In this document: in pieces, positions 235 to 30,678 of the stretch
Numbering within the stretch: position 1 is the stretch's first letter
Layout: the number at the start of each line of letters is the position of its first letter
Made by a program: the position numbers and the translations under genes
The notes under the pieces: generated by a model
Seen by the model: only the letters and a program-made list of their open reading frames with translations
Told to the model about the DNA's origin: nothing
The model's database searches: none
Assembly: GCA_944388955.1 (NCBI GenBank)
Contig: CALXKJ010000011.1
Location: 1-64,000, forward strand
Direction of reading: 5' to 3'
DNA length: 64,000 nucleotides
From: an uncultured Spirochaetaceae bacterium
GTDB taxonomy: Bacteria; Spirochaetota; Spirochaetia; Sphaerochaetales; Sphaerochaetaceae

Positions 235-846
235 TTAGAGCCTCATGCCGAAAAGACGCTCCCATCCAGCCTTGTAGAAGGCCTGAAGGTTCTTGATGTA
301 GATTCTGGCATCCTCACGTGGGACGGAGTGCCGTACCACCTCGAAGAAGGATGTGAAGTAGCCCGATGTAACCATATGCTCAAGAAGGGGATCGATCTCA
401 GGTATCTCCTTCCCATTCTTCCGCATAAGCGCAATGAATTCCTCTGTGGATTCCTCCTCTATTTTCATCATCTCATCGACCATATTCGTATAGCGTGTCC
501 CTTCGGAGCACATCAGGATCAGGCGGAACTCATCCAGATGGTCATAGATATATTCCAGGCACCACTCAACACATTTAGCTGTTATATCTCCCATTCCTGA
601 GACTTGGGTATCATATGGCAATGCTGCGAATTCCACATGGGCACCCTTATAGGCATCCATCACAGTCTCATATGCATCTTTCACGAGCGAGTCGAAGATT
701 TCTTCCTTTGATGCGAAATAGCCATAGAGGGCTCCTGTCGTAACGCCAGCGAGAGAGGCAATCCGCCTCATTGAGGTTCCTTGGAAGCCTCTCTCAAGGA
801 ATTCCTTCTTGGCTGTTTCAAGTATTTTCTTTTCGGTCTCACTCAT
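235..846 (-). CDS. TetR/AcrR family transcriptional regulator
   Basis: This 203-aa protein has a TetR-type helix-turn-helix at residues 8-55 (ILETAKKEFLERGFQGTSM, then GALYGYFASKEEIF), followed by a divergent helical ligand-binding domain. Length and layout are normal for the family. It lies directly upstream of an ABC exporter gene on the same strand, so it probably represses itself and the exporter in response to a small ligand. Two tandem palindromes overlap its own -10 element, which supports autoregulation. The ligand cannot be told from sequence. Confidence 0.9.
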   Translation of the reverse strand: MSETEKKILETAKKEFLERGFQGTSMRRIASLAGVTTGALYGYFASKEEIFDSLVKDAYETVMDAYKGAHVEFAALPYDTQVSGMGDITAKCVEWCLEYIYDHLDEFRLILMCSEGTRYTNMVDEMMKIEEESTEEFIALMRKNGKEIPEIDPLLEHMVTSGYFTSFFEVVRHSVPREDARIYIKNLQAFYKAGWERLFGMRL

Positions 847-1245: not shown

Positions 1246-1263
1246 ATGTTGCAATATGTTGCA
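1246..1263. promoter_or_regulatory. 18-bp direct-repeat element upstream of ygfK
   Basis: Read on the minus strand the element is TGCAACAT-AT-TGCAACAT, an 8-bp direct repeat with a 10-bp period that also contains the inverted repeat TGCAA-N4-TTGCA. The identical 18 bp occur at 21447-21464 upstream of ygeW. It ends 9 bp before the -35 element of the ygfK promoter, a position suited to an activator. I infer it is the binding site of a shared regulator of this locus. Confidence 0.6.
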
Positions 1264-1272
1264 GGAATGCAG

Positions 1273-1300
1273 TTGACACCTCAATATGATAAGATAGAAT
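1273..1300 (+). promoter_or_regulatory. Promoter of ygfK
   Basis: TTGACA (1273-1278) is followed by a 16-bp spacer and TAGAAT (1295-1300), 19 bp before the start codon. An ATGAGGAG ribosome site lies just ahead of the start. Confidence 0.55.
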
Positions 1301-1318: not shown

Positions 1319-4300
1319 ATGGCAGATATTATGAGACCTGTACCGTTTTCTGAGCTGCTTTCAAGAATAGCAGGTGAACTCAGGAATCATGGCTCGATTT
1401 TCGGAATCGATTCGTCGCTTTTCTATCATGATAAAGGCAAGAAGGCGATACGGGTCTTCTCCGAGGAGGCAAGTACTCCTGTAGGTCCTGCGGCTGGACC
1501 GCACACTCAGCTGGCTCAGAATATAATAACAGCATATCTGGAAGGTGCTCGCTTCATTGAGCTCAAGACAGTGCAGATCATGGATCATCTTGAGATTGCC
1601 AAGCCATGCATTGACGCGCGTGATGAATGCTATAACGTTGAATGGTCCACGGAGTTTACTGTCGAGAAGGCTTATGATGAGTATCTGAAGGCGTGGATAA
1701 TCCTCCATATTCTTGAATGCCTGGAGAAGGGCAATCTCGATAAACCATCATTCATCTTCAATATGTCAGTCGGATATGATCTCAAAGGCATCAAGGAAAA
1801 GAAGATGCAATCATATATTGATTCCATGATGGATGCATCCGGCGATAAGTTCGACGACTATATCGCAGAAGCTTCTTCTCTTCTTGGTGATGACCTCTTT
1901 GAAGGTACTGTATGGGAAGGCCGGGAGAAGAAAGCGATTAAGGAGCTGGAAAAGATATCGAGGAATATCTCACCATCAGTAACGATATCAACAATGCATG
2001 GATGCCCGCCTGATGAGATAGAAGCGATATGCTCCTATATGATTGAAGAAAAGCATCTTGATACATTCGTGAAACTCAATCCTACGCTTCTTGGATATGA
2101 AGAGGCGAGGGAAGTTCTCGATTCACATGGTTTCCAGCGAGTGGTACTCAGACGTGAAAGCTTTGAGCATGACCTCCAATATAGCGATGCTGTCCCGATG
2201 CTTGAGCGTCTTGTGGCTCTAGCTGAGAAAGAAGGCAGGGGCTTTGGTGTTAAGCTCACGAATACACTGGGCTCTGTTAATGATGGAAGTGTCCTTCCCG
2301 GTGATGAGATGTACATGTCTGGAAGAGCGCTTCTGCCGCTTTCAATGAGAGTCGCGCTCCGTCTTTCTGAGCACTTTGCAGGTAAGCTTCCAATCTCGTA
2401 TTCAGGCGGTGTCAGCGCGCAGAATGCTTCTTTGATTTTCTCTTCAGGCATTCATCCGATAACGCTTGCAACTGATATGCTGAAACCGGGCGGATACGCG
2501 CGTATGGCTCAGATTGCATCGTTATTGGAGGAAAGCGATGGCTGGAATAAGACAGAAGTCTCAACAGATGCCATAAAGAAGATAATTGATAACAGCGATG
2601 CGAATGCTGAGCGTGATGACTGGAAAGGCGGAAGAAGAGCCAAGCTTGATTCCCCGCTTCCGCTTACCGATTGTTTTGTCGCTCCATGTGTGGAGTCTTG
2701 TCCTATACATCAGGACATCCCCGATTACATCGCGCTTGCGGGAGAGGGACGATGGGCTGAGGCTATCGGTCTAATATACCTCAAGAATGCGCTTCCCAAT
2801 ATCACAGGATGGATATGTGATCATGAATGTCAGAATCACTGTACCCGCCTTGATTATGAAGGTCCTGTGGAAATAAGGGAAATCAAGAGACAGGCAGCAG
2901 AGAAAGGCTTCAAGGAATTCCATGATGAGATATGGGAGAAGCCTGATGAGCCAGCTGATGTGAAAGCTGCTGTCATCGGTGCAGGACCTGCAGGCCTTTC
3001 CGCAGCTTTCTTCCTCGCAAGAGCCGGATTCAGAGTGACTGTCTTTGAGCGTGAGAAGAATGCAGGAGGAGTTGTCAGGAATGTCATTCCAGATTTCCGT
3101 ATTCCTGACGAGGCTATTGAGAAGGATGTCTCGTTCATCGAGGAGCATGGAGTTGAATTCCGCTTCTCATCAGAGACTGATACACTCTCGCTTAGAAAAG
3201 AAGAATATGATTATATCTTCATCTCCGTTGGTGCTGAGAAGCCAAATGATCCGGGAATCACTGGAAATGGGAAGATCATCAGCGCTGTCTCATTCCTTCT
3301 TTCTCTTAAGAGAGGAGATGAGATGGAAGTCGGCAAACATGTCGCAATCATAGGCGGAGGCAATACCGCAATGGATGCAGCTCGCGCCGCTAAACGCATG
3401 AAAGGTGTTGAGAGCGTTACAGTCATATACAGACGCACAGCGCAGGAGATGCCGGCTGACAGGGAGGAATACAAGGAAGCTTTGAGTGAAGGCATAGTCT
3501 TCAGATTCCTTTCTTCTCCTGCAGATTTCACGGATGGCAGACTCCGTGTCAGTATTATGGAGCTGGGGGAGAAGGACTCGTCTGGACGAAGACGTCCTGT
3601 CGCGACTGGTAAGTATGAGGAACTTGCGATAGATACGGTAATCTCCGCTATAGGTGAGAAGGCTGATCCGGAGATGCTGAGAAAGCTTGCCTCCGATGAG
3701 GGTGAGGATGATGGAGTCTTTATCATCGGAGATGCTGCAACAGGCCCGTCGACAGTCGTCAGATGCATGGCAAGCGCGAGATGTGCTGTAGATAAAGCCA
3801 TAGATATGGTTTACGAGGATATCCTCGAGGAAGACGAGGATGAGGATGAGTGCTCTTGCGGTCACCACCATGAAGATGGTGAAGAATGCACCTGCGGCCA
3901 TCATCATGATGAAGATGAGATTTCAGAGGAAGAGGAAATCAAGCTGAGAGAGGCTGAGGATGAGTTCTTCAGGAATATAACTGAAAAGAAGAGCCGTATA
4001 CGTAAGAGTGTCTCTAAAGATGATGACTTCTTCGCTCATACTGAGGCGAAGAGATGCACCGAGTGCTCGTATCTTTGCCTGAAATGCGTTGACGTCTGTC
4101 CGAACAGAGCCAATGTCGCTCTCGATATGCGCTCTACAGGACTATTTGATGATCCATTCCAGATTCTCCATCTTGATGCATATTGCAACGAATGCGGAAA
4201 CTGCGCGACATTCTGTCCTCATAATGGAAAGCCTTATAAAGACAAGTTCACGCTCTTCTCGCTTCGTGAGGATTTCGAGAATAGCACTAACAGCGGTTTC

Positions 4301-4465
4301 TACTACGAAAACGATGAGCTTTATGTGCGGCTTGATGGAAAGGTGACAGAGTGTACGCTTACCCGCGATGGTGAGATTGATGGAGATATTCCAGAGGAGA
4401 TCAAGGCCATGATAGAAGAAGTCTTCCTATCATATCCATATCTTCTTGGCGCTGTGGAGGAGTAA
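1319..4465 (+). CDS. ygfK: YgfK-type selenium-linked flavin/Fe-S oxidoreductase subunit
   Basis: This 1048-aa protein matches the YgfK family ("putative selenate reductase subunit"), now tied to anaerobic purine catabolism. The first ~430 residues form a dihydroorotate-dehydrogenase-like region. A GltD-like Cys cluster follows at ~444-520 (CVESCPIHQD, then C..HECQNHC). Two dinucleotide motifs are present, GAGPAGL at ~550 and GGGNTAMDAA at ~675. A ferredoxin-like C-terminal part has C..C..C...CVDVCP and CNECGNCATFCP at ~911-970. Residues ~838-872 carry an acidic, His/Cys-rich insertion. It probably moves electrons between NAD(P)H and a purine or molybdenum-hydroxylase partner in the cytoplasm. 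The stop overlaps the ssnA start (TAATG). Confidence 0.9.
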   Translation: MADIMRPVPFSELLSRIAGELRNHGSIFGIDSSLFYHDKGKKAIRVFSEEASTPVGPAAGPHTQLAQNIITAYLEGARFIELKTVQIMDHLEIAKPCIDARDECYNVEWSTEFTVEKAYDEYLKAWIILHILECLEKGNLDKPSFIFNMSVGYDLKGIKEKKMQSYIDSMMDASGDKFDDYIAEASSLLGDDLFEGTVWEGREKKAIKELEKISRNISPSVTISTMHGCPPDEIEAICSYMIEEKHLDTFVKLNPTLLGYEEAREVLDSHGFQRVVLRRESFEHDLQYSDAVPMLERLVALAEKEGRGFGVKLTNTLGSVNDGSVLPGDEMYMSGRALLPLSMRVALRLSEHFAGKLPISYSGGVSAQNASLIFSSGIHPITLATDMLKPGGYARMAQIASLLEESDGWNKTEVSTDAIKKIIDNSDANAERDDWKGGRRAKLDSPLPLTDCFVAPCVESCPIHQDIPDYIALAGEGRWAEAIGLIYLKNALPNITGWICDHECQNHCTRLDYEGPVEIREIKRQAAEKGFKEFHDEIWEKPDEPADVKAAVIGAGPAGLSAAFFLARAGFRVTVFEREKNAGGVVRNVIPDFRIPDEAIEKDVSFIEEHGVEFRFSSETDTLSLRKEEYDYIFISVGAEKPNDPGITGNGKIISAVSFLLSLKRGDEMEVGKHVAIIGGGNTAMDAARAAKRMKGVESVTVIYRRTAQEMPADREEYKEALSEGIVFRFLSSPADFTDGRLRVSIMELGEKDSSGRRRPVATGKYEELAIDTVISAIGEKADPEMLRKLASDEGEDDGVFIIGDAATGPSTVVRCMASARCAVDKAIDMVYEDILEEDEDEDECSCGHHHEDGEECTCGHHHDEDEISEEEEIKLREAEDEFFRNITEKKSRIRKSVSKDDDFFAHTEAKRCTECSYLCLKCVDVCPNRANVALDMRSTGLFDDPFQILHLDAYCNECGNCATFCPHNGKPYKDKFTLFSLREDFENSTNSGFYYENDELYVRLDGKVTECTLTRDGEIDGDIPEEIKAMIEEVFLSYPYLLGAVEE

Positions 4466-5811
4466 TGGCAGATATAGTTATCAGGAACATCACTGTTTTT
4501 CAGACGGAGCCGCCATTCGAGATTATAGAAAATGCGGATGTCGTTATTACAGGAAGCACGATTGAGCGCGTTGGTGTGAATGCCGCTGATGGTGTGAATG
4601 CGGGAAAAATGATTGACGGAAGCGGTAAAATCCTTATTCCTGGCAATGTGTGCTCACATCATCATTACTATTCAGCTCTTTCAAGAGGCATGCTCATTTC
4701 AGCAGGTCCTCAGACAGATTTCATCCAGGTCCTCAAGGAGTGGTGGTGGCGTCTTGATAGAGCTCTCGATGAAGAAGCGCTTTATTATTCCTCACTTGTG
4801 GCATCAATGGAGGCTGTTAGCCAAGGTACGACTGGGGTAGTGGATCATCATGCATCTCCGGCGTTCATTAATGGCTCCCTTTCTGTCATTGCCAAAGGCA
4901 TGGAGGATACCGGTATACGAGGTGTAACATGCTTTGAGGTCACAGACCGCAACGGCGGTATGAAGGAAGCTGAAGACGGTGTCAAGGAGAATGTACGCTT
5001 CGCGAAGGAAATCGATGAGCGTATTGCGAAAGGCGAGGATGTGCTTACAGAGGCGATGATTGGAGGGCACGCTCCATTCACGCTGCCTGATGAGGCACTT
5101 GCGATGATGTCCGATGCTGTAAGCAGCTCAGGACGTGGAATGCACCTTCATGTCGCTGAGGATAAGTACGATACGGTATGGTCTCATCATTTCCACAATG
5201 AGGATATCATGACGCGTCTCGACCGCTTTTCCCTTCTTGGAGAGAACACGCTTCTGGTTCATGGGACAGCGCTCTCTGCAAAAGAAGTTGAGCTTCTCAA
5301 TGAAAGAGGCTGCTTCCTTGCTCACAACGCAAGGTCGAATATGAATAACCATGTAGGTTATTTCAGATATCTTCCTGATGTGAAGAAGCTTGTCATCGGT
5401 ACTGACGGATGCGGTGGAAACATGTTCGAGGAGCTGAAGATTACTTTCTTCAAGCATAAGGATGAGGGTGGTCCATGGTGGCCTGCAGATTTCCTTTCAG
5501 CTCTCAGCAGAGGCAACAGGCTTCTTGAGTCAGCATTCGGGAATAGAATGAAGCTTGGACGTATTGAAGCGGGGTACAAGGCGGATGCTGTCATACTGGA
5601 TTATCAATCACCGACACCGCTGAGAAGCGAAAATGCAGCTTCCCACTTTGTGTGGGGAATGTGCTCTGGCAATGTAGAGACTACGATTGTGAATGGCCGT
5701 GTCCTCTATGAGAACGGGCACTTCACGATGCTTGATGAGGAAAGGATCTTCTCTGAAGCGCGTAAAAGCGCGGAAAGAGTCTGGAGAATTGCGGACAGGA
5801 TAAAGGCCTGA
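4465..5811 (+). CDS. ssnA: SsnA family metal-dependent aminohydrolase
   Basis: This 448-aa amidohydrolase-superfamily protein has the standard zinc ligands: HHHYY near residue 64, HLHVAED near 226, LVHGT near 266 and GTDG near 312. SsnA belongs to the guanine-deaminase/chlorohydrolase branch and is conserved next to ygfK and ygeY in selenium-linked purine loci. The likely reaction is hydrolytic deamination of a purine-related compound; the exact substrate cannot be read from the sequence. The start codon overlaps the ygfK stop by one base, so translation is coupled. The next gene begins 16 bp after its stop. Confidence 0.88.
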   Translation: MADIVIRNITVFQTEPPFEIIENADVVITGSTIERVGVNAADGVNAGKMIDGSGKILIPGNVCSHHHYYSALSRGMLISAGPQTDFIQVLKEWWWRLDRALDEEALYYSSLVASMEAVSQGTTGVVDHHASPAFINGSLSVIAKGMEDTGIRGVTCFEVTDRNGGMKEAEDGVKENVRFAKEIDERIAKGEDVLTEAMIGGHAPFTLPDEALAMMSDAVSSSGRGMHLHVAEDKYDTVWSHHFHNEDIMTRLDRFSLLGENTLLVHGTALSAKEVELLNERGCFLAHNARSNMNNHVGYFRYLPDVKKLVIGTDGCGGNMFEELKITFFKHKDEGGPWWPADFLSALSRGNRLLESAFGNRMKLGRIEAGYKADAVILDYQSPTPLRSENAASHFVWGMCSGNVETTIVNGRVLYENGHFTMLDEERIFSEARKSAERVWRIADRIKA

Positions 5812-5827: not shown

Positions 5828-7048
5828 ATGATAAAAGACAGGATTGCCGAGCTCGGCGAGAAGTACAGGGATTACACAGCAGAGAATCTTTCGAAGCTTG
5901 TGCAGACAAAGAGCTACAGCTCGAAGGAAGAAGATGTCTGCCGTCTTATCGTGAAACTTTGCGAAGAAGCTGGATTTGATGAGGCTAGAATCGAAGGCCT
6001 TGGCTCTGTTGTAGCCAGAGTCGGCAATGGTCCAAAGACGCTTGCTTTCGATGCTCATATCGACACAGTTGAGGTTGGAAACCTTAAGAACTGGAATTTC
6101 GAGCCGTTCTCTGGAGCTATCAAGGATGGGCTTGTTATGGGACGTGGCGCATCTGACCAGAAAGGCGGAGCCGCTTCCATGATAACAGCGGGCCGTATTC
6201 TCAAGGAGCTTGGGTATGGTGGTGAGTACACCATTCTCTTCACATTCACTGTAATGGAAGAGGATTGCGATGGAATGTGCTGGAAGTACATGATTGAGGA
6301 AGAGGGCATCAAACCTGACATGATTGTCTCCACAGAGCCTACAAGCTGCCGCCTTTACCGTGGACACAGGGGCAGAATGGAGATCCGTGTCATACTTCGC
6401 GGTATCTCATGCCATGGTTCAGCACCGGAGCGTGGTGTCTCTGCGGCATACAAGGCAGCAAAAGCCGCACTCGCGATTGAGCAGCTCAATAAGGATCTGC
6501 AGCCCGATGATGACAACTTCCTTGGAAAGGGGACAATCACAGTATCGCAGATGGATGTCAAAGGACCATCGCAGTGCGCTGTTCCAGATTACGCGATGCT
6601 TTACTGTGACCGCCGTCTTACATGGGGCGAGGATGCGGAGCTTGCAATAAAGCAGGTCAAGGAATATGTTTCAAAGGCTACAGGAGACCCGGAGGATCAG
6701 ATAATCGTTGAGATGCCTGACTACGACAAGATAGCGTGGACTGGCACGAAGTACTCTCAGGAGCTTTACTTCCCGACATGGAAGCTCGATGAATCACATC
6801 CTCTTGTGCAGGCTGGTATCAAGGACTATGAGGATCTTTTCGGCAAGAAGCCTGTTGTGGATAAGTGGACATTCTCCACGAATCTTGTTGCGACTACAGG
6901 ACGTCATAAGATTCCTGCAATCGGATTCGGACCTGGCGATGAAGCACAGGCCCATGCGCCAAATGAGATCAATAGGGTCGAGGATCTTGTTATATGCTCT
7001 AAATTCTATGCAATGCTGCCATATGCGCTTGAGGGCAGAACAGAATAA
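5828..7048 (+). CDS. ygeY: YgeY family M20/DapE-like hydrolase
   Basis: This 406-aa M20 family metallohydrolase is shaped like DapE/ArgE deacylases. Visible metal-site motifs are FDAHIDTV near residue 75, GRGASDQKGG near 110, and an EE pair in VMEEDCDG. A dimerisation segment includes HGSAPERGV. YgeY is a fixed member of the selenium/purine locus, where it is thought to cleave a ring-opened purine intermediate. The start at 5828 has a GAAGGAGAG ribosome site, 16 bp after ssnA. A terminator hairpin follows, so ygfK-ssnA-ygeY looks like one transcription unit. Confidence 0.88.
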   Translation: MIKDRIAELGEKYRDYTAENLSKLVQTKSYSSKEEDVCRLIVKLCEEAGFDEARIEGLGSVVARVGNGPKTLAFDAHIDTVEVGNLKNWNFEPFSGAIKDGLVMGRGASDQKGGAASMITAGRILKELGYGGEYTILFTFTVMEEDCDGMCWKYMIEEEGIKPDMIVSTEPTSCRLYRGHRGRMEIRVILRGISCHGSAPERGVSAAYKAAKAALAIEQLNKDLQPDDDNFLGKGTITVSQMDVKGPSQCAVPDYAMLYCDRRLTWGEDAELAIKQVKEYVSKATGDPEDQIIVEMPDYDKIAWTGTKYSQELYFPTWKLDESHPLVQAGIKDYEDLFGKKPVVDKWTFSTNLVATTGRHKIPAIGFGPGDEAQAHAPNEINRVEDLVICSKFYAMLPYALEGRTE

Positions 7049-21446: not shown

Positions 21447-21464
21447 TGCAACATATTGCAACAT
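21447..21464. promoter_or_regulatory. 18-bp direct-repeat element upstream of ygeW
   Basis: TGCAACAT-AT-TGCAACAT, identical (on the opposite strand) to 1246-1263 upstream of ygfK. A further partial copy, ATTGCAAGG, follows at 21468-21476. It sits about 60 bp upstream of the ygeW start, next to a weak promoter, which fits an activator site. Confidence 0.6.
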
Positions 21465-21468
21465 CTCA

Positions 21469-21497
21469 TTGCAAGGCGATGAATGCTGTGTTAAGCT
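21469..21497 (+). promoter_or_regulatory. Weak promoter of ygeW
   Basis: TTGCAA (21469-21474), a 17-bp spacer, then TAAGCT (21492-21497). The -10 is poor, consistent with dependence on an activator bound at the adjacent repeat. Confidence 0.35.
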
Positions 21498-21523: not shown

Positions 21524-22726
21524 ATGGCCAAAGATAAAGCGGTTATCATGAAGATGATTGAAGAGCTCAAGGCTCTTGATACATCAAAGATGTACCTCAA
21601 TGATTTCTTCCACACATGGAAGGAAAGCGATGATGAGATTGCAGCTGTTTTCAAGGTTGCAGAGATTCTCAGGGGGATGAGGGAGAACAATATCTCCGCG
21701 AAGGTCTTCGATTCTGGGCTCGGTATCTCGATTTTCCGTGATAACTCAACACGCACGAGATTCTCATTTGCTTCTGCTTGCAACCTCCTTGGTCTTGAGG
21801 TTCAGGATCTTGACGAAAAGGTTTCCCAGATTGCTCATGGCGAGACAGTCAGAGAGACTGCAAACATGATTTCATTCATGGCTGATGTAATCGGTATCCG
21901 TGATGATATGTATATCGGTAAAGGCTATACATACATGAAGAGCGTTTCCGAGGCTGTACAGGAAGGCTACAGGGATGGTGTTCTTGAGCAGCGCCCTACG
22001 CTTGTGAACCTCCAGTGTGATATAGATCACCCGACACAGTGCATGGCTGATATGCTTCATGTCATCAACCATTTTGGCGGAGTGGAGAATCTCAAGGGCA
22101 AGAAGATTGCCATGACTTGGGCATACTCACCATCATATGGTAAGCCGCTTTCAGTTCCACAGGGTGTCATCGGTCTCTTCACAAGATTCGGAATGGATGT
22201 CGTTCTTGCTCATCCTGAAGGATATGATGTGATGAGCGATGTTGAGGAAGTCGCTATCAAGAACGCGAAGGCTTCAGGTGGCTCATATAAGAAAGTGAAC
22301 ACTATGGAAGAGGCATTCAAGGATGCAGATATCGTCTATCCGAAGTCATGGGCTCCATATGCGGTTATGGAAGAGAGAACAAAGCTCGTAGGCGAGGGCA
22401 GATTCGACGAACTTAAGGATCTTGAGAAGAGATGCCTCGAGAACAATGCCAAGTTCAAGAACTGGACATGCTCTGAAGAGCTCATGAAGACAACAAAGGA
22501 TGGCAAGGCTCTTTATATGCATTGTCTCCCTGCTGATATCACTGGCGTGAGCTGCAAGGAAGGCGAGGTCGATGCATCAGTTTTCGACCGCTATCTTGTT
22601 CCTCTCTACAAGGAGGCTTCATATAAGCCATATGTAATCGCGGCTATGATCTTCCTCTCGAAGTTCCAGAATCCATCAGCAAAGCTTGACGAGCTTATGG
22701 CTGCCGCAAAACCGAGAATCAGATAA
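21524..22726 (+). CDS. ygeW: YgeW family carbamoyltransferase
   Basis: This 400-aa protein of the aspartate/ornithine carbamoyltransferase superfamily has the carbamoyl-phosphate motif FRDNSTRTRFSF near residue 72 and the C-terminal MHCLPADITG near 327. The extra length and the segments IAHGETVRETANMIS and PSYGKPLSVPQG match YgeW, a conserved member of selenium/purine loci; the homologue from E. coli shows the knotted fold. Its physiological substrate is not settled; an allantoin- or ureido-like compound produced from purines is likely. An AAGGAGG ribosome site precedes the start, and a terminator closes this unit. Confidence 0.9.
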   Translation: MAKDKAVIMKMIEELKALDTSKMYLNDFFHTWKESDDEIAAVFKVAEILRGMRENNISAKVFDSGLGISIFRDNSTRTRFSFASACNLLGLEVQDLDEKVSQIAHGETVRETANMISFMADVIGIRDDMYIGKGYTYMKSVSEAVQEGYRDGVLEQRPTLVNLQCDIDHPTQCMADMLHVINHFGGVENLKGKKIAMTWAYSPSYGKPLSVPQGVIGLFTRFGMDVVLAHPEGYDVMSDVEEVAIKNAKASGGSYKKVNTMEEAFKDADIVYPKSWAPYAVMEERTKLVGEGRFDELKDLEKRCLENNAKFKNWTCSEELMKTTKDGKALYMHCLPADITGVSCKEGEVDASVFDRYLVPLYKEASYKPYVIAAMIFLSKFQNPSAKLDELMAAAKPRIR

Positions 22727-26613: not shown

Positions 26614-26642
26614 ATTATATATCAAAGAATATGATGGCGCAA
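26614..26642 (-). promoter_or_regulatory. Promoter and candidate operator of the ModE/importer operon
   Basis: On the minus strand TTGCGC (26637-26642), 17 bp, then TATAAT (26614-26619). The spacer and -10 contain the imperfect inverted repeat ATCATAT-N8-ATATAAT, loosely like ModE sites. The -35 region overlaps GCAACGATATTGC, partly similar to the 18-bp element near ygfK and ygeW. Confidence 0.45.
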
Positions 26643-27240
26643 CGATATTGCTTCCATGCAGTATGCAGAGCATCTGCCGTGCATCATTTATTGAGCTTCA
26701 TCGATAGTGAATGTTACCTGCGTTTCAGTATCTGAATTGCATCACTTCTTCAATTACGTGTTTTGTATATCTTTAAACTTTTTTAAAATAACTTAAAAAA
26801 GTTGTAATAAACGATAAGTTTTTAAAATTACTTTCAAAAACTTGATATAATCACATGGATGGATTTCACTTTCTTAGCTACTAAGAGCCATTCCATGCTT
26901 CAAGCATGGTAATCTGAACTATCGTTTATTCTTCCTCGTTTCTTTCCCTCAATCTTCATGATTACATCTTCAAAGATTAAATCAATTTCTTATTTGTTAT
27001 ATTTGCTTGATAATAACGTAACAATGAATTTTAGTCATACTAAGCCTAGACAATAATACCCTCAGATTTTCATGAACGTTGATTCAGCGGAACCATGATC
27101 TAAACAAAATGGAACATGGTCGTAGCGGCATGCAGCTATGCTGGTGTTGTCAGCTATAATATATCAGGGGACCTTTTATTTTGCCCACTGAAATTTTGAA
27201 AATAATAGAAAACAATAGGGAACGAAGGTTCTCTTCATAA
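26643..27240. other. AT-rich gene-poor stretch
   Basis: About 600 bp with no credible coding region. It is clearly richer in A and T than its surroundings (runs such as AAACTTTTTTAAAATAAC). It contains the inverted repeat pair listed separately and an isolated GATATAATC -10-like sequence at 26846-26851 without a good -35. It may be foreign or decayed DNA. Confidence 0.45.
26806..26930. repeat. Inverted repeat pair enclosing a hairpin
   Basis: AATAAACGATA (26806-26816) and its exact complement TATCGTTTATT (26920-26930) enclose about 100 bp; allowing one indel the match extends by three more bases. Inside lies a strong hairpin CCATGCTT-C-AAGCATGG (26893-26909). It could be a structured RNA or the footprint of a very small element. 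No target-site duplication was identified. Confidence 0.4.
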
Positions 27241-29661: not shown

Positions 29662-30678
29662 ATGAAAGATTATCTGGATGAATACATCATTGCGACAAGA
29701 CTGATACATCGTGATTGCGGAGCGACTATTGAAGAACTCTCGGAAGCTCTGGATAAGACTCCGCGAGCAGTATTTTCTATACTCAATCAGCTCGATTCAA
29801 TGATGTTCCCGATTTACGACATGCCTGATCCGGATAATCCCAAGAAAAAGCGCTATCATGCAGACGGGACATTCGCTGAATATCTTCCATCGCTGGATTT
29901 CTCGGAAGAGGAGAAAGCTGTTTTCAATTATCTGATTAATGCTTCCGATTCTGTTCCTGGTATTGAGATAGGGGCAAGAAGGCTATTCACCAAGTTCAAG
30001 CTGATGGCAGCAGAACGAGGTGCTCTGATTGAGAATGGGAATCGTAAGCCCGTACTGATTGTCAGCACTAAGACCCTGAACAAGAATATCGATAACAAGA
30101 AACTCAATACAGTCACGTCTGATTTATTGAGTGCGATAAAAGAAAAGAAATGGGTAACATTGGAATACAGAAATGCAGTAAGCAATGGATTTTTCAGCTA
30201 TACAGTATTTCCTCTCTTGATCTTCATACATAAAGGCGATAGTTACGCATATGTGAGAAATAGATTCAATGGTCTCCGCGTGATAGCCCTTGAACGCATT
30301 GGAAGAATAGAGAGTACATTTGATGGCGATATTCCTCCTGATGATACGGATGTAATCAAACTGCTTGATGATCCTTTCGGCTTCATCTGTGATATGGATG
30401 AGACCGAGGTCATTTTAGAAGTTGATTCAGAGCAGGCATCTTTTGAAAAAGCAATCAACTGGCCAATCTCAACAAAGCTTGAGGAAAAGGAAGATGGCGC
30501 ATTGCTGATGAAAACAAGAACTCATTCGTATTTCGATCTGAAACGATGGATTCTTGAGCGCACACCTCATATCAGAGTCATGTCTCCAGAGTGGATGAGG
30601 GAGGACATCAAGGAGACACTTTCTGCTGGTCTTGAACTCAATTCTTCTCAGGAAATTGAAAAAGCAGAGAGGTCTTAA
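29662..30678 (+). CDS. WYL-domain transcriptional regulator
   Basis: This 338-aa protein has an N-terminal winged-helix (LDEYIIATRLIHRDCGATIE, then LSEALDKTPRAVFSIL), a WYL domain at ~145-235 (WVTLEYRNAV, FPLLIFIHKGDSYAYVRN, RVIALERIGRI) and a C-terminal WCX-like extension. The WYL core is partly degenerate. Such regulators often bind nucleic-acid ligands and control phage-defence or DNA-stress genes. It is divergent from the AAA ATPase gene and probably controls it. Confidence 0.8.
   Translation: MKDYLDEYIIATRLIHRDCGATIEELSEALDKTPRAVFSILNQLDSMMFPIYDMPDPDNPKKKRYHADGTFAEYLPSLDFSEEEKAVFNYLINASDSVPGIEIGARRLFTKFKLMAAERGALIENGNRKPVLIVSTKTLNKNIDNKKLNTVTSDLLSAIKEKKWVTLEYRNAVSNGFFSYTVFPLLIFIHKGDSYAYVRNRFNGLRVIALERIGRIESTFDGDIPPDDTDVIKLLDDPFGFICDMDETEVILEVDSEQASFEKAINWPISTKLEEKEDGALLMKTRTHSYFDLKRWILERTPHIRVMSPEWMREDIKETLSAGLELNSSQEIEKAERS

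Follow-up and report, generated by a model that had tools for sequence, protein, structure and literature searches.

WYL-family transcription regulators described in the literature consulted here serve either the response to DNA damage (PafBC, DriD, and SiwR) or phage defence (BrxR and CapW) (PMC12340889, PMC6789036, PMC9122601, PMC10693628). DriD of Caulobacter crescentus, which acts in DNA damage and is activated by single-stranded DNA, recognizes a pseudo-palindrome, ATACGAC-N7-GTCGTAT, that overlaps the -35 element (PMC12340889), whereas PafBC of mycobacteria is a heterodimer of the DNA-damage response (PMC6789036) and BrxR represses from a site located between its own promoter and gene (PMC9122601). 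The anaerobic breakdown of urate by gut bacteria is relevant to gout, and the pathway was worked out only recently (PMC12507026). The enzymes of reductive urate degradation are XdhD, YgfK, SsnA, HyuA, YgeW, YgeY, YgeX, and YqeA, the last of which is the carbamate kinase of Escherichia coli; the term "regulator" does not occur in the main text of that report (PMC12507026). We found no literature that joins WYL regulators with purine metabolism or catabolism, none on the regulation of purine genes in Sphaerochaeta, and none that names a regulator of anaerobic urate degradation in the organisms considered here.

In the present study, we followed a repeated 18-mer in a spirochaete genome through a set of 139 genomes (referred to here as the family) of gut and environmental spirochaetes around Ca. 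Ornithospirochaeta. Among genomes of the same genus as that under study, G073 matches a Candidatus Ornithospirochaeta stercoravium record without difference across the region compared, and another, G036, likewise matches an uncultured Spirochaetaceae record. NCBI classifies the genus under Spirochaetota, Spirochaetales, and the family probably equals Sphaerochaetaceae of GTDB. The comparison points, with good confidence, to a dedicated transcription factor, most likely a protein with HTH_11 and WYL/WCX regions, that would control purine and urate catabolism of the family through this element. The target genes correspond to the enzymes of the reductive urate pathway (PMC12507026). Both these targets and the protein fold were already known; what appears to be new is their combination, along with the operator and the regulon. 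The finding supplies a site, a gene set, and a single testable protein.

The element and its placement at promoters

The window, the whole stretch of 64,000 nucleotides that was analysed, contains two exact copies of TGCAACATATTGCAACAT, just as the first-pass annotation had reported, and these are the only exact copies in the genome (2.1 Mb in 33 contigs). Its identification of the genes downstream as ygfK and ygeW was borne out by matches to curated models far above the cut-off. The 18-mer ends 55 bp 5' of ygfK, in antisense orientation, and 59 bp 5' of ygeW, in sense orientation. The features concerned are as follows.

1246-1263, minus strand: putative operator at ygfK, with heptads TGCAACA-TAT-TGCAACA at 1247-1263, antisense to ygfK
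1273-1300, plus strand: predicted ygfK promoter, TTGACA (1273-1278), 16-bp spacer, TAGAAT (1295-1300)
1319-4465, plus strand: ygfK, yanthine reductase of the reductive urate pathway (function per PMC12507026), first gene under the operator
4465-5811, plus strand: ssnA, 3' of ygfK on the same strand
5828-7048, plus strand: ygeY-family hydrolase, 3' of ssnA on the same strand as ygfK
21447-21464, plus strand: putative operator at ygeW, with heptads TGCAACA-TAT-TGCAACA at 21447-21463, sense to ygeW
21469-21497, plus strand: tentative ygeW promoter (weak match), TTGCAA (21469-21474), 17-bp spacer, TTAAGC (21492-21497)
21524-22726, plus strand: ygeW, knotted carbamoyltransferase, under the second operator
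C3:73595-74551, outside the window: candidate regulator of the same genome, HTH_11 plus WYL/WCX

No further copy with up to three mismatches was present in the window (0.05 expected from shuffled sequence), and the whole genome contains only five sites at this level. The third best of these, with two mismatches (C16:669), lies directly 5' of a carbamate kinase gene (AA_kinase).

The repeat had originally been read as TGCAACAT-AT-TGCAACAT. Its repetition was confirmed, and the conserved unit is rather YGCAACA-N3-YGCAACA, a direct repeat with a period of 10 bp. In an alignment of 53 sites, two TGCAACA heptads stand head-to-tail; each repeat is variable in its opening bases, with CGCAACA being common, whereas the terminal CA is kept, a pattern that identifies a direct repeat and excludes the palindrome reading of TTGCAACATATTGCAA. 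A 4-bp spacer was also seen, for example 5' of the regulator gene of the same genome. CtsR operators are likewise direct heptad repeats with a 10-bp period, differing from the present element in sequence, in protein family, and in the genes served. A weaker relative had been proposed at the ModE promoter (26639-26651); the letters are present there, but they make up a single half-site that is not among the matches of the site model in the window (score above 9), and we have dropped it. Third heptad-like copies or tandem elements accompany some sites (L042:9894-9920, L370:103-141, and 21469-21474 of the window), which suggests cooperative binding.

The position of the element was determined with a site model that was trained on sites not located 5' of ygfK and then applied to 90 ygfK upstream regions. 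The element was detected in 84 of these regions, always in antisense orientation; 82 exceeded the 99% level of shuffled sequence, and those of G044 and G051 were also positive, scoring 21-23. In the 82 regions, the element is followed, usually 6-8 bp downstream, by a -35 hexamer of TTGACA or TTGACT, with TAGAAT, TACAAT, or TAAAAT in most cases at -10 and a 16-bp spacer in all but three (79/82).

Across target genes, three arrangements were apparent relative to promoters that are themselves predicted from sequence. In the first, the element lies just 5' of the -35 hexamer (18-mer at about -59 to -42), as at ygfK (antisense), ygeW and ygeY (both sense), and the gene for a Bmp-type transporter. 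In the second, it lies over the core promoter of carbamate kinase, with its own TTGCAA replacing the -35 hexamer. In the third, it is located at or after the start site, as for the regulator gene in several genera, where it directly follows TATAAT or TATACT, and for adenine deaminase in genus g16. The first arrangement fits an activator, the third fits a repressor, and the second could accommodate either. The proposal of one dedicated activator was sound with regard to a single dedicated regulator for functionally linked promoters, whereas the sign fits only part of the sites.

We lean slightly toward a dual action, with activation from the upstream position and autorepression, and would give repression throughout not quite an even chance. 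In its full form, the latter would make the WYL protein a plain repressor at all sites that is relieved by a purine, a possibility that we regard as somewhat doubtful. It would account for the elements at or after the start sites of the regulator gene and ade and for that overlapping the carbamate kinase -35 hexamer, and the -35 and -10 hexamers of ygfK are near consensus. It accounts less readily for the fairly constant distance at which the element precedes the -35 hexamer at independent promoters (those of ygfK, ygeW, ygeY, and the Bmp-type transporter), in either orientation, and the nearest relatives of the protein, DriD and PafBC, are activators.

The candidate regulator and its distribution

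The first-pass annotation had seen no regulator gene within the purine locus, and the best candidate indeed lies on another contig, C3. It came to light through one exact site situated about 21 bp 5' of a gene for a 320-amino acid protein with HTH_11 and WCX domains. All 28 members of the protein family that were compared match both HTH_11 and WCX (PF25583), with the protein of the genome under study scoring 28.8 (cut-off 25) and 28.3 (cut-off 23.9), respectively. The latter protein has no Pfam match to the WYL domain (PF13280) at an E value of 0.01. In its AlphaFold model, which has low overall confidence (pLDDT 64), strands of the WYL region are in the right place, and the protein family shares an invariant GRLRHT stretch there; the model also contains NH2-terminal helices and a wing, a part with low confidence.

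DriD-type WYL proteins ranked first in a profile search of the PDB, the best fold matches of the AlphaFold model (pLDDT 64) were DriD and PafBC, and some members match the PafC helix-turn-helix model. DriD, an HTH-WYL-WCX activator (PDB codes 8tp8, 8tpk, and 9pfq), is thus the nearest structure by both profile and fold, with a similar NH2-terminal helix-turn-helix and COOH-terminal WCX domain. It differs in its pseudo-palindromic site and its role in DNA damage, compared with a direct repeat and purine genes here. PafBC, the next nearest fold, has a non-palindromic site and is a heterodimer, as opposed to a single gene in the present case, and the BrxR and CapW repressors, likewise of the WYL family, bind inverted repeats at phage-defence genes. 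The sites of known WYL regulators are thus inverted, pseudo-palindromic, or non-palindromic, and the direct repeat counts against the candidate, as do the missing Pfam match for its WYL domain and the weak AlphaFold model.

A single-copy, full-strength orthologue was present in 125 of the 139 family genomes. The protein is missing in G017, G076, G136, G137, and G138, five genomes in which the exact element is absent as well, and was undetected in nine other genomes. Among these nine, completeness exceeds 90% in G120 alone. G120 (96% complete) carries the element with no detected orthologue, as do the eight less complete genomes, and G024 and G067 carry the protein with no element at ygfK. Overall, of 97 genomes that encode the protein, 95 have the element at ygfK, versus 5 of the 9 that lack it (Fisher p of about 0.0004, kinship being ignored). 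The heptad pair was also detected, at 12 or more of its 14 positions, in 53 of 60 regulator promoters, compared with 0.7% of shuffled sequences and none of the 60 with the reversed motif.

Outside the family, a close orthologue (52%) was found in only two genomes of the phylum sample. In each of these two outgroup genomes, elements that are exact or have one mismatch occupy 11 places, compared with one in the control. The genes concerned include ygfK, carbamate kinase, and a xanthine-permease/amidohydrolase pair, and two of the sites fall in the interval that separates a permease gene from a xanthine dehydrogenase gene; a two-mismatch site lies near the start of the regulator gene. Genomes with distant homologues only have 0 to 5 elements. 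The helix-turn-helix region of the regulator is almost invariant, which is what an invariant site would lead one to expect.

From these comparisons, the HTH_11 and WYL/WCX protein is the best candidate, and most likely the protein, that reads the element. The regulon and operator could be real and the WYL protein merely a regulated member, with another transcription factor reading the element, but we consider this unlikely. A regulator that is itself regulated could carry the same site, the regulator inventory of the genomes is incomplete, and G120 has the element with no detected orthologue; on the other hand, protein and element have been lost together, they co-occur in the outgroup, the helix-turn-helix is nearly invariant, and the OmpR-type and AsnC alternatives do worse.

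Several other proteins were considered as readers and set aside. No protein with PF00486, and hence no OmpR/PhoB-type response regulator, is encoded by G120, which has the element at ygfK, and the Lrp/AsnC regulator beside serA/serC is absent from G029 and G062, both of which have the element at ygfK. Neither the TetR protein of the window (235-846, minus strand), 400 bp from the ygfK operator, nor a second WYL/WCX protein (29662-30678, plus strand) has a match in element-bearing loci. No link to the element was found for the sole CdaR-type HTH_30 protein of the genome, which has a Diacid_rec domain. Separately, three genomes of genus g2 (L040, L042, and L044) encode, close to ygfK, a two-component pair whose response regulator is of the AraC type.

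For the WYL/WCX protein as reader, genome comparison establishes the site and where it is placed, which genes it accompanies, its presence at the regulator gene itself, and its joint occurrence with the protein, whereas we infer binding, dimer geometry, ligand, and sign. A dimer would use its two winged helix-turn-helix domains to contact the two YGCAACA heptads, head-to-tail and one helical turn apart. Bound just 5' of the -35 hexamer, the regulator would control ygfK, ygeW, and ygeY; when located at its own gene's start site, it would most likely limit its own synthesis; and its degenerate WYL domain may sense a purine or nucleotide-like signal. On balance, we find it plausible that a WYL branch gave up its roles in defence and DNA repair and now serves spirochaetes as the master switch for anaerobic catabolism of purines (urate), reading head-to-tail heptads rather than a palindrome and detecting a purine metabolite with a WYL domain whose name-giving signature has been lost. 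If so, central metabolism would join DNA damage and phage defence among the processes under WYL regulators, and the system would offer a natural setting in which to seek a small-molecule WYL ligand.

Conservation and gene content of the regulon

Exact TGCAACA-N3-TGCAACA occurs in 117 of the 139 family genomes and its reversed control in none. The 17-base core, allowing up to one mismatch, was found in 39 of the 139 genomes and 13 of 22 genera, again with no match to the reversed pattern, and the exact 17-mer, when sought in a sample spread evenly over the phylum, was confined to the family. Loci of sufficient length contained 116 distinct sites, only five of which are located deeper than 150 bp within an open reading frame, even though 85% of this DNA is coding. 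Copies are thus few in the genome, rarely well inside genes, and strongly kept 5' of orthologous ygfK and ygeW, so that the element passes the checks set out in the first-pass annotation.

Outside the family, none of 33 ygfK loci (from Clostridia, Enterococcus, Synergistaceae, and others) has the element 5' of the gene. This absence, the conservation linked to ygfK, and the sites at other purine genes together identify the 18-mer, at the level of sequence comparison, as the operator of a lineage-wide purine-catabolism regulon. A chance or mobile repeat, for which only the small copy number in one window speaks, is refuted to near certainty by this conservation, given the 117 genomes matched against none for the reversed control, the fixed place and orientation at ygfK, and the dissimilar flanks of different gene classes.

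Further targets, each in one or more genera, include ygeW, ygeY-like hydrolases, a ygeX-like PLP lyase, carbamate kinase, and adenine deaminase, as well as the transport genes for xanthine/uracil permeases and the Bmp-type transporter. A nucleoside-phosphorylase-family protein, a selenium-linked molybdenum hydroxylase, and xanthine dehydrogenase are additional targets. The ygfK gene is present in 132 of the 139 family genomes; reductive urate degradation is probably present alongside it family-wide and looks like a core trait.

Some elements precede genes of other kinds. One lies 5' of purE-purC-like genes (L311:1519, G034), with the same element sequence at G037:C1:13179, and would connect purine catabolism with biosynthesis. 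Others precede glyceraldehyde-3-phosphate dehydrogenase-like genes in two genera (L305:1524, G018; L316:1564, G077). Elements were also found 5' of a DUF1015 gene, itself followed by a permease-like gene, and 5' of a serC-like aminotransferase gene (L074:9993, G120; L080:9981, G131), a placement that suggests a possible link to serine metabolism.
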